A stretch of 64,000 bases of DNA from Lachnospiraceae bacterium (GTDB lineage: Bacteria; Bacillota; Clostridia; Lachnospirales; Lachnospiraceae): assembly GCA_017470735.1 (NCBI GenBank), contig JAFUYB010000042.1, positions 1 to 64,000 of the forward strand. Reading direction: 5' to 3'. The notes below the pieces were generated by a model. It saw only the letters and a list, made by a program, of their open reading frames with translations, made no database searches and was not told the origin of the DNA. This document shows, in pieces, positions 20,345-26,376 of the stretch. Positions within the stretch are counted from its first letter, which is position 1. Each line of letters starts with the position of its first letter. Made by a program: the position numbers and the translations under genes.

Positions 20345-20395
20345 ATGGAGTTCGCCATCCCAAGGCTTTTTCTTTTTTCCATGGACAAACTATCC

Positions 20396-20424
20396 TTGTG
20401 TTTCTTACTATATTGTCCTATAAT
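20396..20424 (+). promoter_or_regulatory. Promoter of the ArgR-like gene
   Basis: TTGTGT (20396-20401), 17-bp spacer, TATAAT (20419-20424). Transcription would start about 35 bp before the TTG start codon. Confidence 0.75.
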
Positions 20425-20467
20425 AAGAAAAGACATAATTAACCGTCTGATACAAAGGAGAACGACA

Positions 20468-20986
20468 TTGTCTGACCAGATTATGAGCAAACCGACACGC
20501 GTGCGGATGAATCCGTCGCGGAACACCTGTGAAGAGATCATCCGCCGCATTCTGACGACGGAGAATAAAGAAAATGGCAGGAACCAGCATTTCAAAACAG
20601 CCGCCGACTTTATGGCCTACTTTGAGTCCCTCTATCCGTCCGGTCCCGGACTGACGAAGCAGGTACAGCGCGCGATCAAATCCATGGATCTCGCCAAAGA
20701 CGAAAACGGCTATTTTCTGATCAATAAGACCAAAGAAGCCGCTGCCCAGGAAAAGGAACTGTCTGCTATTTTGGCAAAAACGAATGCATCTCTTGTCGAT
20801 ACAGGCACATTCGACACAATTTTTCTGACCGCAGAGCCGGTCTACCGCTCCTGCCTGCTGGCTCTGCTGAATGAAGCAAAAAGCCTGCGCCCGCTTTACA
20901 TTACCATTGTGGAGACGACTGACGGACTTCTGTTTCTGACAAATGAGGCAGGCGCACTCAAGGAAGCACTGAACCGCTTATTGTAA
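20468..20986 (+). CDS. ArgR-like regulator, divergent
   Basis: A 172-residue protein starting at TTG (20468), chosen because AAAGGAG lies seven bases upstream; an ATG at 20483 is possible. Residues about 20-85 read as a winged helix whose end (GLTKQVQRAIKSMDLAKDENGYFLI) lines up with the DNA-binding domain of arginine repressors, and the C-terminal ~70 residues (FLTAEPVYRSCLLALLNEA...TTDGLLFLTNEAGALKEAL) have the length and pattern of the ArgR oligomerisation domain. The GTxxGDDT-type arginine site is not kept, so arginine binding is doubtful. It is divergent from the AbiEi-led operon and could control it. The family call is by pattern only. Confidence 0.5.
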   Translation: MSDQIMSKPTRVRMNPSRNTCEEIIRRILTTENKENGRNQHFKTAADFMAYFESLYPSGPGLTKQVQRAIKSMDLAKDENGYFLINKTKEAAAQEKELSAILAKTNASLVDTGTFDTIFLTAEPVYRSCLLALLNEAKSLRPLYITIVETTDGLLFLTNEAGALKEALNRLL

Positions 20987-21012: not shown

Positions 21013-22998
21013 TCATCTCCGCCTGCGCCGTTTCCTCCGTCCGTTGTTACGGATCAGCTGATATTTTGGCTTCCGCGCTTTACGCTCATCGCGGCGGCGC
21101 ATCCTCTTCTGGTAGACTAACGGCGACAGCCAGCGGAGCAGCAGTATCACGCCGATCAGTCCGCACAGCCCCGCCACCGCCGCACCGATCATCGCGAAAT
21201 CCACACGGAAGAAACCCTCCGTTTCTTTTTCCAAATTATGGAACGGATAGCTGTAGCCGTCGGCCGAGGCAAACCGCAGCTTGCCGCCGCCGACATAGTG
21301 GTCGCCATAGGAAAACGACAATTCCCCTACCACGCCGTCCCCATTGTCCTGAAGCGGCTCAAGCGAGACCTCCGTATCCAGCACGCTTGCCGTCTTTGGC
21401 AGCACGACGGTCGCATCTTCATCCACCGAAAACAGCTCCACAGTCTCTGCCATCCGCCCGGTGCTGCGTTTTGCCGCGCTGCTTAAGCCTCCCGTTTCCG
21501 CCACCGGATAAGTGACGAAATTGTCAAAATAATAGTCAAACAACCGGATCGTATCCGTATAGTATCCGGGCGACGGCGCGTTCATCACGACACAGACCAG
21601 CGTCATCCCGTTGCGTTTCGCGTAGGTAACCAGCGTATTCTGCGCCACCACCGTATATCCTGTCTTTCCGCCGAGACAGCCCTCATAAAGATATTTGTTG
21701 GTGCGGTAATAGTTCAGCATCGCATGGTGATTGTTGAGCAGGGTCGGCTCCGAATGCTTGTTGGTCGGCGGGATCGTATACGCGCGTGTCCCGACAATCG
21801 TGCGGAATGTCTTGTTGTGGAACGCTTCCCGCGAGATCAGCGCCATGTCATAACTTGAGGTATAATGGTCATCCTGCGGCAGTCCGTTCGGATTGCCGAA
21901 GTGCGTATGCTTGCAGCCGATCTCTTTTGCCCGCTTGTTCATCATTTTCACAAACGCTTTTTCACTGCCGCCGACATGCTCCGCGATCGCCCATGCGCAC
22001 TCATTGGCCGATTCCAAAAGCATTCCGTACAGGCACTGCTCCATCGTCATTTTTTCCCCGACCTCACGGGCAATGTGCGATGTGTCCCCCTCATTCAGAT
22101 ACACCGCGTCTGACGAGAATTTCACGACCTCATCGAGATCACAGCTCTCGATCGCCAGCAGCGCGGTCATTATCTTCGTGATGCTCGCAGGATAATATTC
22201 GTGGTTCGGGTGCTTCTGATACAGCACCGCGCCCGATTCCTCCTCCATCACGACGACCGAAGCCGACTCTGTATCAACACCCGACGGCCAGACATTTGCC
22301 GCTTCTGCGGGAACCGGCGGAAACAGCATTGTCACCAAAAGCGCCAGGCACATCAGATGCGCGATCAGCTTGTGGATCGGCTTTCCCTCGCTTGCAAATT
22401 TTTCTTCGTATTCGGTCATAATATTCCCTTCCCGCATCGCGTCGTCCCGATGCAGATCAAAGGTAACGGCGTCCGTCTCCCACCGCGGAGCCTCGTCGAA
22501 GGATTCCAACGAAAAATCAAACAGCTCGCGGTTGTCCGTCTTGAACTCGATCCGGCCGCCCTCGGCAAGCACTTCTTCATACCGTTTTAAAAACCGCGGC
22601 GAAGTCAGCCGGCATTTGGCGTGACGCGCCTTCGGCCAGGGATCCGAAAAATTCAGGTAGATCCTCTCGACCTCGCCCTTTGCGAAAATGTCAGACAGCA
22701 GCCGCGCGTCCTCCCGCAAAAGCAGCAGGTTCTTTGGCGGATGCTCCATCGCTTCGAGCTTCTCCACGGCACGGCAGAGCACGCTCGTGTACATCTCGAT
22801 CCCAACGAAATTTACCTCCGGATGAAGCCTGGCCTGCTCCAAAATGAATTGTCCTTTTCCGACACCAATCTCGATAAATATGGGATTATCGTTATCAAAA
22901 GACAATTTCCATTGTCCTTTTCGCTCCATTGCATTTTGCACGCAAAACGGACTTTCCGCAATAACGCTGTCCGCTTTCGGTATATTTCTCAGTCTCAC
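21013..22998 (-). CDS. TrmB tRNA (guanine-N7) methyltransferase fused to D-Ala-D-Ala carboxypeptidase
   Basis: One open frame of 661 residues. Residues 1-~213 are a complete TrmB, which methylates G46 of tRNA: SAM site IEIGVGKGQFILEQA, FSDPWPKARHAKCRL, and the typical end 'GNIMTEYEEKFASEGKPIH'. It runs straight into a hydrophobic signal-like segment (LMCLALLVTMLFPPVPAEA) and then a full DacF-type penicillin-binding protein: active Ser in ASITKIM, SAN in ESANEC, and KTG in GGKTGY. A C-terminal membrane helix and a very basic tail follow. Topology in-out-in is self-consistent. An internal ATG at 22419 has GAAGGGA six bases upstream and would start a separate exported carboxypeptidase, so two products are possible. 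The start overlaps the SGNH gene's stop (ATGA). Confidence 0.85.
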   Translation of the reverse strand: MRLRNIPKADSVIAESPFCVQNAMERKGQWKLSFDNDNPIFIEIGVGKGQFILEQARLHPEVNFVGIEMYTSVLCRAVEKLEAMEHPPKNLLLLREDARLLSDIFAKGEVERIYLNFSDPWPKARHAKCRLTSPRFLKRYEEVLAEGGRIEFKTDNRELFDFSLESFDEAPRWETDAVTFDLHRDDAMREGNIMTEYEEKFASEGKPIHKLIAHLMCLALLVTMLFPPVPAEAANVWPSGVDTESASVVVMEEESGAVLYQKHPNHEYYPASITKIMTALLAIESCDLDEVVKFSSDAVYLNEGDTSHIAREVGEKMTMEQCLYGMLLESANECAWAIAEHVGGSEKAFVKMMNKRAKEIGCKHTHFGNPNGLPQDDHYTSSYDMALISREAFHNKTFRTIVGTRAYTIPPTNKHSEPTLLNNHHAMLNYYRTNKYLYEGCLGGKTGYTVVAQNTLVTYAKRNGMTLVCVVMNAPSPGYYTDTIRLFDYYFDNFVTYPVAETGGLSSAAKRSTGRMAETVELFSVDEDATVVLPKTASVLDTEVSLEPLQDNGDGVVGELSFSYGDHYVGGGKLRFASADGYSYPFHNLEKETEGFFRVDFAMIGAAVAGLCGLIGVILLLRWLSPLVYQKRMRRRDERKARKPKYQLIRNNGRRKRRRRR

Positions 22999-24116
22999 TT
23001 GTCATCCTCATTCCGGACAATCGCGTATTGCTTCAGGTAATCCAGCCACAGCGGATAGTAATGCGCCGTCAGATGGACATTGTCATTTGTGTAGTCCATC
23101 CGCAGGTCGCCGTTTCCGTCACAGAGTGCCTCGCTCGGCTCGATGTAAAAAATATCGTGTCCGTTCGCCAGCTTGGAAATAGCCTCATTCCGCTGAACGA
23201 GGTTTTTATTATTGAACGCCGGATCACTCCAGCTCATGGCTCCGCTGACATGGACAACCCCCTGGATGTAAATGATCGCGTCGGGCTGCGCTTTACGGAT
23301 GCGGCGGATCACTTTTTTGTATTCGTTGCGGAAATCCGTCGTCTTTGGCACGCCCATTTCGTTCATTCCGACACAGATGTATATCTTTCTGTAATCGTGT
23401 TTTTTCAGCACCTTTGCCAGCGATGTTTCATAATTCTCCGTTTCGGTACGGAAAGGGATCCTCACATCAAATACATTGTAGATTGTCACCGACTCTAACG
23501 CATAAAAGCTGGCATGATACCGCAAATCCGTATAATTATACAAACCGTCCGTCTGGGAATCCCCAATGAACAATGCGTCATCAAAGTAGCGGTTCTTGAC
23601 GGAACGGAACGCGTAATAATCGTGGTTCTGCTGAAACACGCCCTTTTTGGGATATTCATATACCGTGTCTTCAGGATCCATATAGTACGGATCGGCAACA
23701 CCGTAATCCATCGCAGGCAGCACGGGCCTTGTCGCCTCTTCGGGGAAAAGTCCTGAATAGATATATGTCCCTTTAGACGCCTCCTTGCGTTCCTCGATCA
23801 CATCCTCTAATGGCCTGTCCGTGCGGTTTGCTTCCTCTTCCGCCGACACATAGCCCGCTTCTTCTTCAACCGCGGGTTCCTCTTCTTCTTCCACCTTCGC
23901 CTGCTCTTCATCGGGGGCGGTTCCGGCGTTACCAACGCCCATTTCCTCCGAAATCCCATCCAGCACGACAGTATAGACCGGTGCCTGCAGGAAGTGATAA
24001 TCCCTGCCCGTTTTAAGCTCTCCGACCGCACCTGCGCCCCGCAGAATCAGACCTGCTGCCACAACCAGCAGCAAAAGCGGTATTTTTTCCAATAAAACTT
24101 TTAATATCTTCTTCAT
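22995..24116 (-). CDS. SGNH/GDSL-like hydrolase, membrane anchored
   Basis: A 373-residue protein with an N-terminal membrane helix (about 11-30), an acidic Glu-rich stalk (about 70-110) and an extracellular SGNH hydrolase domain (about 175-365). The block I Ser is in FIGDSQTDGL, block III in CVGMNEMG, and the Asp/His pair in DNVHLTAHYYPLW. Such proteins commonly work with an adjacent MBOAT acyltransferase to acetylate cell-surface polysaccharide, and an MBOAT gene lies four bases upstream here. The polysaccharide acted on is not shown. Confidence 0.87.
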   Translation of the reverse strand: MKKILKVLLEKIPLLLLVVAAGLILRGAGAVGELKTGRDYHFLQAPVYTVVLDGISEEMGVGNAGTAPDEEQAKVEEEEEPAVEEEAGYVSAEEEANRTDRPLEDVIEERKEASKGTYIYSGLFPEEATRPVLPAMDYGVADPYYMDPEDTVYEYPKKGVFQQNHDYYAFRSVKNRYFDDALFIGDSQTDGLYNYTDLRYHASFYALESVTIYNVFDVRIPFRTETENYETSLAKVLKKHDYRKIYICVGMNEMGVPKTTDFRNEYKKVIRRIRKAQPDAIIYIQGVVHVSGAMSWSDPAFNNKNLVQRNEAISKLANGHDIFYIEPSEALCDGNGDLRMDYTNDNVHLTAHYYPLWLDYLKQYAIVRNEDDK

Positions 24117-24119
24117 CTC

Positions 24120-25478
24120 TTAAAAATATAAATACATGAACGGGTTGGCTTTGGAACTATTGGCACTGTACAAGCTGATCCACAGCAGCAGTACAAGGAT
24201 TGCCGCTTCAACGAGGCGGGCTTTTCCGTCCCGTTTCTGCTGCACAAATTCATACACTTTGGGTACGCACAAGGCAATCCCGGCGCAGATGTAGGTCCAA
24301 AACCGTGACAGATAGCGGACAAAATCATTCGGATCCGCCCCGGCTGTCTGTCCGCTCAGCGGCAGCAGCCGCGAGAATAATGCCGAAAGCTCTGACATAT
24401 TGCCGACCGCAAAGCACATCCAGGTCAGCGGTATCAGCACGATCACATACATATGCCCCACTGCCGGATATTTTCGCAGCCACTTTATCCCGATAAATTT
24501 TTCCCACAGGATCAGTCCTCCAAGCACAAGACCCCACAATATAAAATGCAGTCCGCCGCCATGCCAGAAGCCGGTCAGCAGCCAGACAAGCAGGATATTG
24601 ACGATCGTCCGCTTTTTCCCTTTGCGGCTCCCGCCAAGCGGAATGTACACATAATCCTTGAACCACGAGGTCAGCGTTATATGCCAGCGCCGGTAAAACT
24701 CCCCGACCGAAGTCGCCGCGTAGGGATGTCGGAAATTCTCCACAAATGAAAATCCGAGCATCACGCCGATGCCTGCCGCCATCAGGGAATATCCCCAAAA
24801 ATCAAGATACAGCTCCAGTGAATAGCCTGCCGCTGCCAGCCATGCCAGCGGCGTTGACAGGCTTTCAAATCCGATCTTTACGGCTTCGTGCCAGAGGATA
24901 GCCAGACGGTCTGCCACCAGCACCTTCATGGCCAATCCGATGATCAAATATTTTAGTCCCTCTTCTATTTTAATCAGGGACAGACGGTGCGGTTTTGCAT
25001 ATTCTTCTTCCGTGTACCGCATAATCGGACCCTGCGCCACCTGGAAGAACAGCGAAAAATAAGCCGCCATCGTAAACATAGACGGTTTTTGCGTTATTTT
25101 CCCCTGGTACAGATCCGCCTGGAAAGACAGCATTTTAAAAATGTAGAAGCTGATACCGAGCGGAAGCGCCATCCCCAGCGCCACAGACATTATCTTGAAC
25201 AGTACGAGCACACCGGCATCCATGCCTGCTATGGCCAGCAGTATCTGCCTGCGGTGCCGGCCGTTATCGCTCTTGTCCTCCCAAACCATCTTTGCGAACA
25301 CAAAATTGAGCCAGCAGAGCAACAGCAGCAAGGGCAGATGCCGCCAGTCGCCCATCGCATAAAAAATGAGGCTTCCCGTAAACAGCGCCGGCTGCTGCAT
25401 CCTCCGTGGCAATAGAAAATATATGATTAAGAATAACGGCAAAAACCGAGATAGGAAGTTTAAATCCGTAAACGCCAT
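24120..25478 (-). CDS. MBOAT family O-acyltransferase (AlgI/DltB-like)
   Basis: A 452-residue polytopic membrane protein that would pass acyl groups across the membrane. Conserved MBOAT elements are FYRRWHITLTSWFKDYVYIPLGG and the catalytic His in LLTGFWHGGGLHFILWG; about ten or more hydrophobic helices are spread over the length. With the SGNH protein directly downstream it makes the two-component set known from AlgI/AlgJ-like and DHHW/PatA-type systems for O-acetylation of exopolysaccharide or wall polymers. No dltA or dltC is nearby, so D-alanylation is unlikely. Confidence 0.92.
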   Translation of the reverse strand: MAFTDLNFLSRFLPLFLIIYFLLPRRMQQPALFTGSLIFYAMGDWRHLPLLLLLCWLNFVFAKMVWEDKSDNGRHRRQILLAIAGMDAGVLVLFKIMSVALGMALPLGISFYIFKMLSFQADLYQGKITQKPSMFTMAAYFSLFFQVAQGPIMRYTEEEYAKPHRLSLIKIEEGLKYLIIGLAMKVLVADRLAILWHEAVKIGFESLSTPLAWLAAAGYSLELYLDFWGYSLMAAGIGVMLGFSFVENFRHPYAATSVGEFYRRWHITLTSWFKDYVYIPLGGSRKGKKRTIVNILLVWLLTGFWHGGGLHFILWGLVLGGLILWEKFIGIKWLRKYPAVGHMYVIVLIPLTWMCFAVGNMSELSALFSRLLPLSGQTAGADPNDFVRYLSRFWTYICAGIALCVPKVYEFVQQKRDGKARLVEAAILVLLLWISLYSANSSKANPFMYLYF

Positions 25479-25553
25479 TGTTTTATCCTGTCAATCCGAA
25501 TAGGAACCATTGCCCCCATTCAGTATCTATTCCCGCCAGCAGAGCCGCAACCT

Positions 25554-26306
25554 TTATACATACACATCCAGCTCAACTGCCTGATTTCCTTTCCTGGTCT
25601 CATGGGAAATCCCGCGAAAAATGCATTTTCCCTTGTGACGGACTGATATCACGTCATCTTCCTTCAAAACAACAGACGGATTCGTGCAAACCCGTCCATT
25701 GATAAAAATCTCCTGCTTCGCAAACGCTGCTTTTGCCGCGCTGCGCGAAAAATGATACAGCTTTGCCACGATCCCGTCCAGCCGGACGGACGCGGCCACC
25801 AGCGTCTTTCTCTCCAGTCTCGGCAAGGCCGTCTCCGGCAGATCTTCCATCACCGCGCATCGGACATCCGTATGCCGTACCCGGTGCAGGCTTTCCACCA
25901 CGAAATCCGCCATCCGTTCCGCCACAAAAGCATACGCTTTTCCGTCTGACAGCAGGATGTCTCCCAGCACACCCCTTTCGATGCCGAGGTTCATCAGCGC
26001 CCCAAGGAAATCCCGATGACTCAAATTCTCTGCAAACTTTTCATTCATCGGAGAAATGCACACCACTGTGATCGGAAAAGCAGCCTCATAACCGAATTCC
26101 TCCGGATTTCCAAAGCGTACCATCACGCGTTCCGCTGCTTCGCTGCCGCCCCACACCGCAAGCCGTGCCGGCTCACAGACTTCATACGCCATGCCCGCGT
26201 CCGCAGGCGATAAAAAATCCGAAAAGCAGTAGGTATTTGTCCGATAACTCTTTTCAGCCAATTCCGCCAGTCTCTTTTTTAAAAATTGGCTGTCATTCAC
26301 GGTCAC
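25554..26306 (-). CDS. YlmH-like S4-domain RNA-binding protein
   Basis: A 250-residue protein like YlmH of Gram-positive bacteria, which binds stalled 50S-peptidyl-tRNA particles in ribosome quality control. The N-terminal two thirds are the YlmH-specific region (FSDFLSPADAG, GDILLSDGKAYAFV), and the last ~70 residues form an S4 domain (SAAKAAFAKQEIFINGRVCTNPSVVLKEDDVISVRHKGK). The start is GTG at 26306, supported by AGGAAAGG. It stands alone behind a good promoter, whereas ylmH usually lies in the division/cell-wall cluster. Confidence 0.85.
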   Translation of the reverse strand: MTVNDSQFLKKRLAELAEKSYRTNTYCFSDFLSPADAGMAYEVCEPARLAVWGGSEAAERVMVRFGNPEEFGYEAAFPITVVCISPMNEKFAENLSHRDFLGALMNLGIERGVLGDILLSDGKAYAFVAERMADFVVESLHRVRHTDVRCAVMEDLPETALPRLERKTLVAASVRLDGIVAKLYHFSRSAAKAAFAKQEIFINGRVCTNPSVVLKEDDVISVRHKGKCIFRGISHETRKGNQAVELDVYV

Positions 26307-26347: not shown

Positions 26348-26376
26348 ATTATCCCTTATTTCCACTACTGTGTCAA
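26348..26376 (-). promoter_or_regulatory. Promoter of the YlmH-like gene
   Basis: Minus strand: TTGACA (26371-26376), 17-bp spacer, GATAAT (26348-26353), about 40 bp before the GTG start. The stretch 26377-26623 holds no gene that I can support; a T7 run past the tRNA at 26575-26581 may belong to its terminator. Confidence 0.8.

Follow-up and report, generated by a model that had tools for sequence, protein, structure and literature searches.

Structure of the fused gene

The window analysed here comprises 64,000 nucleotides of contig JAFUYB010000042.1 from a Lachnospiraceae bacterium (assembly GCA_017470735.1). On its reverse strand, the tRNA (guanine46-N7)-methyltransferase TrmB and a D-Ala-D-Ala carboxypeptidase (Peptidase_S11, hereafter Dac) are encoded by a single frame with zero internal stops, as had been proposed in the original prediction. 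The coordinates of the fused gene, its parts and its neighbours are presented in Table 1.

Table 1. Features of the trmB–dac locus in the window.
Feature	Position	Strand	Remarks
trmB–dac fusion ORF, 661 aa	21013..22998	-	GTG start at 22998, stop at 21013; overlaps the upstream SGNH gene by 4 nt (GTGA)
TrmB half, residues 1–215, class I SAM methyltransferase	22354..22998	-	Pfam Methyltransf_4; B. subtilis TrmB match; AlphaFold
TrmB codon 129, TGC (Cys)	22612..22614	-	Equals E. coli R154
In-frame internal ATG, Met194 of MTEYEEKF	22417..22419	-	Candidate internal start; universal TrmB codon
Hydrophobic h-region, former Dac signal peptide, residues 215–226, LMCLALLVTMLF	22321..22356	-	
AEA signal-peptidase I motif, residues 231–233	22300..22308	-	Predicted cut before A234; AxA conservation
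Peptidase_S11 D-Ala-D-Ala carboxypeptidase domain, residues 242–475	21574..22275	-	SxxK, SAN, KTG; Pfam, fold match
C-terminal helix with membrane-anchor segment, then basic tail, residues 601–641 onward	21076..21198	-	AlphaFold secondary structure and sequence
Upstream SGNH/GDSL hydrolase gene	22995..24116	-	Adjoins trmB in fused and some divergent relatives
Convergent downstream gene, no Pfam family	20345..20986	+	Conserved beside dac; fixes synteny

Pfam placed Methyltransf_4 at residues 37–211 (E 3.5e-45) and Peptidase_S11 at residues 242–475 (E 7.2e-57) of the fusion. The TrmB half scored 154 bits with PF02390 (cut-off 24) and exceeded the cut-offs of the NCBIfam TrmB equivalogs TIGR00091 (177.6; cut-off 112.65) and NF001080 (186.8; cut-off 132). 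The Dac half scored 193 bits with PF00768, likewise far beyond the curated threshold, and the SxxK, SAN and KTG motifs, all of which had been read from the sequence at the outset, are present on an S11 fold. The AlphaFold model of the fusion consists of two confident domains (mean pLDDT 86.9), whose placement relative to each other is undefined (pTM 0.57). Foldseek matched this model to B. subtilis TrmB (7nyb and 2fca; approximately 50% identity and a target TM-score of 0.94) and to S11 carboxypeptidases, of which 3mfd was the best match (target TM-score 0.88).

Conservation of the two halves

Both halves are under purifying selection, with pN far below pS; these values were used instead of dN/dS because synonymous sites were saturated for most pairs. 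None of the 63 near-invariant family positions is altered in the Dac half. At the 68 near-invariant positions of TrmB, the A. ruminis pair described below shows 0 changes, while 4, 5 and 10 changes were counted in the window's copy and those of its two nearest relatives; unfused proteins average 0.4. The window's genus thus shows drift in its TrmB half. Faster TrmB evolution cannot clearly be put down to the fusion, since it is partly seen in G150, which is unfused, and is absent from A. ruminis.

In the window, Arg129 of TrmB is replaced by Cys, although this residue is Arg in 72 of 72 unfused and in all five other fused TrmBs. It corresponds to R154 of E. coli TrmB, in which the R154A change abolished activity; Cys at R154 was not among the changes made there (PMC10130221). 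The remaining six of the seven E. coli activity residues (D144, H151, R154, R155, D180, T217 and E220) are kept, and the window copy thus lacks one residue of the set needed for E. coli TrmB activity. The homology of this copy to TrmB stands; its m7G46 methylation appears doubtful because of the Arg129Cys change. The description of this half as a complete TrmB thus needs correction, a residue invariant among the unfused relatives being changed.

The TrmB frame remains open in the window's genus despite the changes at near-invariant sites, which is what a dependence of Dac synthesis on read-through of TrmB would lead one to expect. However, TrmB is still constrained, with pN far below pS, so that the open frame alone is no proof of read-through.

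Occurrence of the fusion

The survey of trmB–dac junctions in relatives showed that the in-frame fusion recurs. It occurs in genomes G153 (CAJOFQ010000010.1), G151 and G154 of the window's genus, and it is also present in the isolate Agathobacter ruminis JK623 (NZ_PDYG01000009.1) and in SIG321 (SVFB01000010.1), a sister MAG of that isolate. In G152 the contig end falls inside TrmB, and this genome probably carries the same fusion. In total, the fusion was found in six genomes and in one more truncated by a contig edge.

The TrmB of the fusion is the sole TrmB found in the window's genome, an assembly of 107 contigs, and a search for a second TrmB in the fusion-bearing genomes, several of which are incomplete, found none. 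No further full-length fusion was detected in 397 genomes sampled across the family, 62 genomes of the Agathobacter-type genus and 391 genomes of the class; outside Lachnospiraceae, the 391 class genomes gave zero fusions at the E-value used, which weak or very distant cases may escape. The literature search found no publication on a trmB–dac fusion in the library covered.

Gene order and origin of the fusion

In the majority of the Lachnospiraceae loci examined, trmB and dac lie side by side and are oriented divergently. Where the two are fused, the genes on both flanks hold their positions and trmB alone is inverted: the order '<PepT <TrmB >Dac' of L193 corresponds to '<PepT >TrmB+Dac' in A. 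ruminis, while '>SGNH <TrmB >Dac' in L005 and L169 corresponds to '>SGNH >TrmB+Dac' in the window. The constant flank on one side is PepT in Agathobacter and SGNH in the window lineage; the same unnamed convergent gene constitutes the other flank in both. This comparison of gene orders indicates that the fusion goes back to a divergent pair of the usual kind in which trmB was inverted in situ.

In the trees based on the Dac half, the fused sequences are placed in two distant positions, and their grouping as one clade was rejected by the AU test (p-AU 2.6e-5). The fusion therefore arose at least two times in Lachnospiraceae, in separate lineages of gut bacteria within the family, and a single origin is ruled out. 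Resolution is poor in the TrmB tree, which by itself would not decide the number of origins. The original prediction held that the TrmB stop codon had been lost. A simple stop loss in an old tandem pair was rejected, as the usual state in most relatives is divergent and trmB has been inverted at least two times.

Unfused tandem trmB–dac pairs exist in G150, G436, L084 and L112, which shows that the inversion of trmB does not always lead to fusion, and these pairs may be intermediates. Within the window's genus, one fusion with a split in G150 and two separate fusions fit the data equally. In G436, which belongs to the Agathobacter-type genus, trmB and dac (L215, 10402–12530) form an unfused tandem pair with a gap of about 60 bases, apparently the result of another trmB inversion without fusion.

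The joint and the proposed processing

In the AlphaFold model, the last TrmB beta-strand (residues 209–215) is directly followed by a short hydrophobic helix and then by a low-confidence stretch (residues 226–232). The join comes immediately after the final strand with no linker, exactly at the end of TrmB, where it had been located from the sequence. The Dac of the fused genes has lost its own start and basic n-region, unlike that of the tandem pair in G150 (SNKKAPPKKNKRPLIIR). The predicted signal cut lies between PAEA and the next Ala, and AxA is found three residues ahead of a conserved Trp in 7/7 fused frames, compared with 53/67 divergent relatives. All seven fused frames thus show what is expected of a signal-peptidase I substrate, an h-region with AxA after it at the orthologous position, and the putative site at which the fusion could be split, already noticed in the original prediction, is conserved.

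The reading towards which we lean is that of a genuine fusion gene, derived from the in-place inversion of trmB and fixed at least two times, which is read from the TrmB start and from which signal peptidase I frees the carboxypeptidase. Translation would begin mainly at the TrmB start, and TrmB would fold in the cytoplasm, its C-terminal strand (KPIHKLIAH) now supplying the n-region for the signal peptide of Dac. The chain would then be inserted with TrmB inside and Dac outside, and signal peptidase I would cut at the retained AxA site. The products would be a TrmB bearing a hydrophobic tail of roughly 20 residues and a carboxypeptidase of the ordinary kind, anchored by its C-terminus. The AxA motif in 7/7 frames and the loss of the Dac n-region favour this reading, as does the promoter scan of the coding strand of the trmB part, which found no promoter-like site in the window or in A. 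ruminis, such scans being weak evidence. A folded 215-residue domain abutting a signal peptide without a linker is uncommon, and the cut might be made slowly or not at all. Also counting against this reading is the internal ATG of the window, which has a stronger predicted Shine-Dalgarno energy (-7.0) than the GTG start (-5.7).

That ATG, at 22419, is the basis of the alternative in which two starts give two products, which we regard as unlikely: the TrmB start would yield the full-length protein and the internal start a carboxypeptidase free of TrmB. All fused genes have this ATG in frame, and in the window it is preceded by GAAGGGA, its energy being reached by only 3.9% of internal ATGs, with those of the window alone as the yardstick; a similar value was obtained in G153 (-7.3). 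However, the ATG encodes the Met within GN[IV]MTEYEEKF, a universal TrmB motif, as it does in 62/62 divergent genes in which the motif could be located, and the preceding Gly-Asn codons are just as universal. The mean energy in fused genes (-4.4) is no better than in divergent ones (-4.9), with -3.3 in A. ruminis and almost none (-1.7) in G154, so the internal start is not specifically favoured in fused genes. For the TrmB start, energies between -3.8 and -12.1 were predicted, and in four of six fused genes this start has the stronger value of the two. Moreover, the n-region obtained from the internal start would have a net charge of -1 to +1, whereas the unfused examples inspected have basic n-regions. 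Of the internal start proposed originally, the ATG and its GAAGGGA are present, but the Met is universal and its energy no better than in divergent genes; local use in the window is possible. The fused TrmB of G154 (L211, 6112–8250) contains an additional repeat-like stretch of about 28 residues that immediately precedes GNIMTEYE and leaves the frame intact.

It is likewise improbable that the fusion escapes cleavage and persists stably as a two-pass membrane protein, in which the carboxypeptidase would face outwards while TrmB is tethered on the inner side, where it might bring tRNA methylation to the membrane. A cytosolic domain, a transmembrane segment and an outside domain form an ordinary topology, both domains are modelled confidently, and the fusion recurs; nevertheless, a mere anchor would need no AxA, which is kept at the unfused position in 7/7 frames, there is no linker between the domains, and the drift of TrmB in the window's genus does not suggest a newly important tether. 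An assembly or consensus error that erased a stop, earlier put forward as an alternative and to which the 107 contigs of the window's assembly might point, is ruled out by the presence of the same fusion in other species whose genomes, one of them that of an isolate, come from different projects.

Comparison with known systems

If cleaved, the fusion would be a bacterial polyprotein of two unrelated pathways, in which signal peptidase frees the wall enzyme while TrmB keeps a membrane tail, a state reached independently at least two times by a flip of trmB; we hold this broader reading to be evenly balanced. In Bradyrhizobium, fbcH encodes cytochrome b and c1 as a polyprotein that is split by signal peptidase. 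The likeness lies in a single frame for two proteins that part at an internal signal peptide, cleavage being predicted in the case of trmB–dac; in contrast, both fbcH products belong to one membrane complex. The literature search for the fbcH precedent found no paper.

The window TrmB resembles that of B. subtilis in its fold, SAM motifs and nearly all activity residues, and differs in the C-terminal extension by an exported protein and in the Cys at the E. coli R154 position. The Dac half shares SxxK, SAN, KTG, the C-terminal anchor and the AxA cut site with S11 carboxypeptidases of the DacB/DacF type (B. subtilis 3mfd), but is without its own start codon and basic n-region and has TrmB in front. 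A natural TrmB fusion is also known with PrmC (NCBIfam NF002421), where the partner is another cytoplasmic methyltransferase and not an exported enzyme.

The locus represents a natural experiment: on at least two occasions an RNA enzyme of the cytoplasm became linked to an exported wall enzyme, each time at the same joint and with retention of the cut site. As the isolate A. ruminis JK623 bears the fusion, both the role of signal peptidase as a polyprotein processor and tRNA methylation by a membrane-tailed TrmB are directly testable. The results also imply that the inversion of a single gene within a divergent pair can generate fusions and that annotation by the best domain can conceal an exported enzyme under the TrmB name.

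Neighbouring genes

The downstream gene at 20345–20986 (+) is convergent with dac in most relatives and encodes about 165–215 amino acids. In G154 and G150, YlmH lies directly upstream of trmB, without MBOAT and SGNH. In the window, the YlmH, MBOAT and SGNH genes (22995–26306, -) are located upstream of the fusion on the same strand, and a strong promoter-like site is present at 26376–26348.
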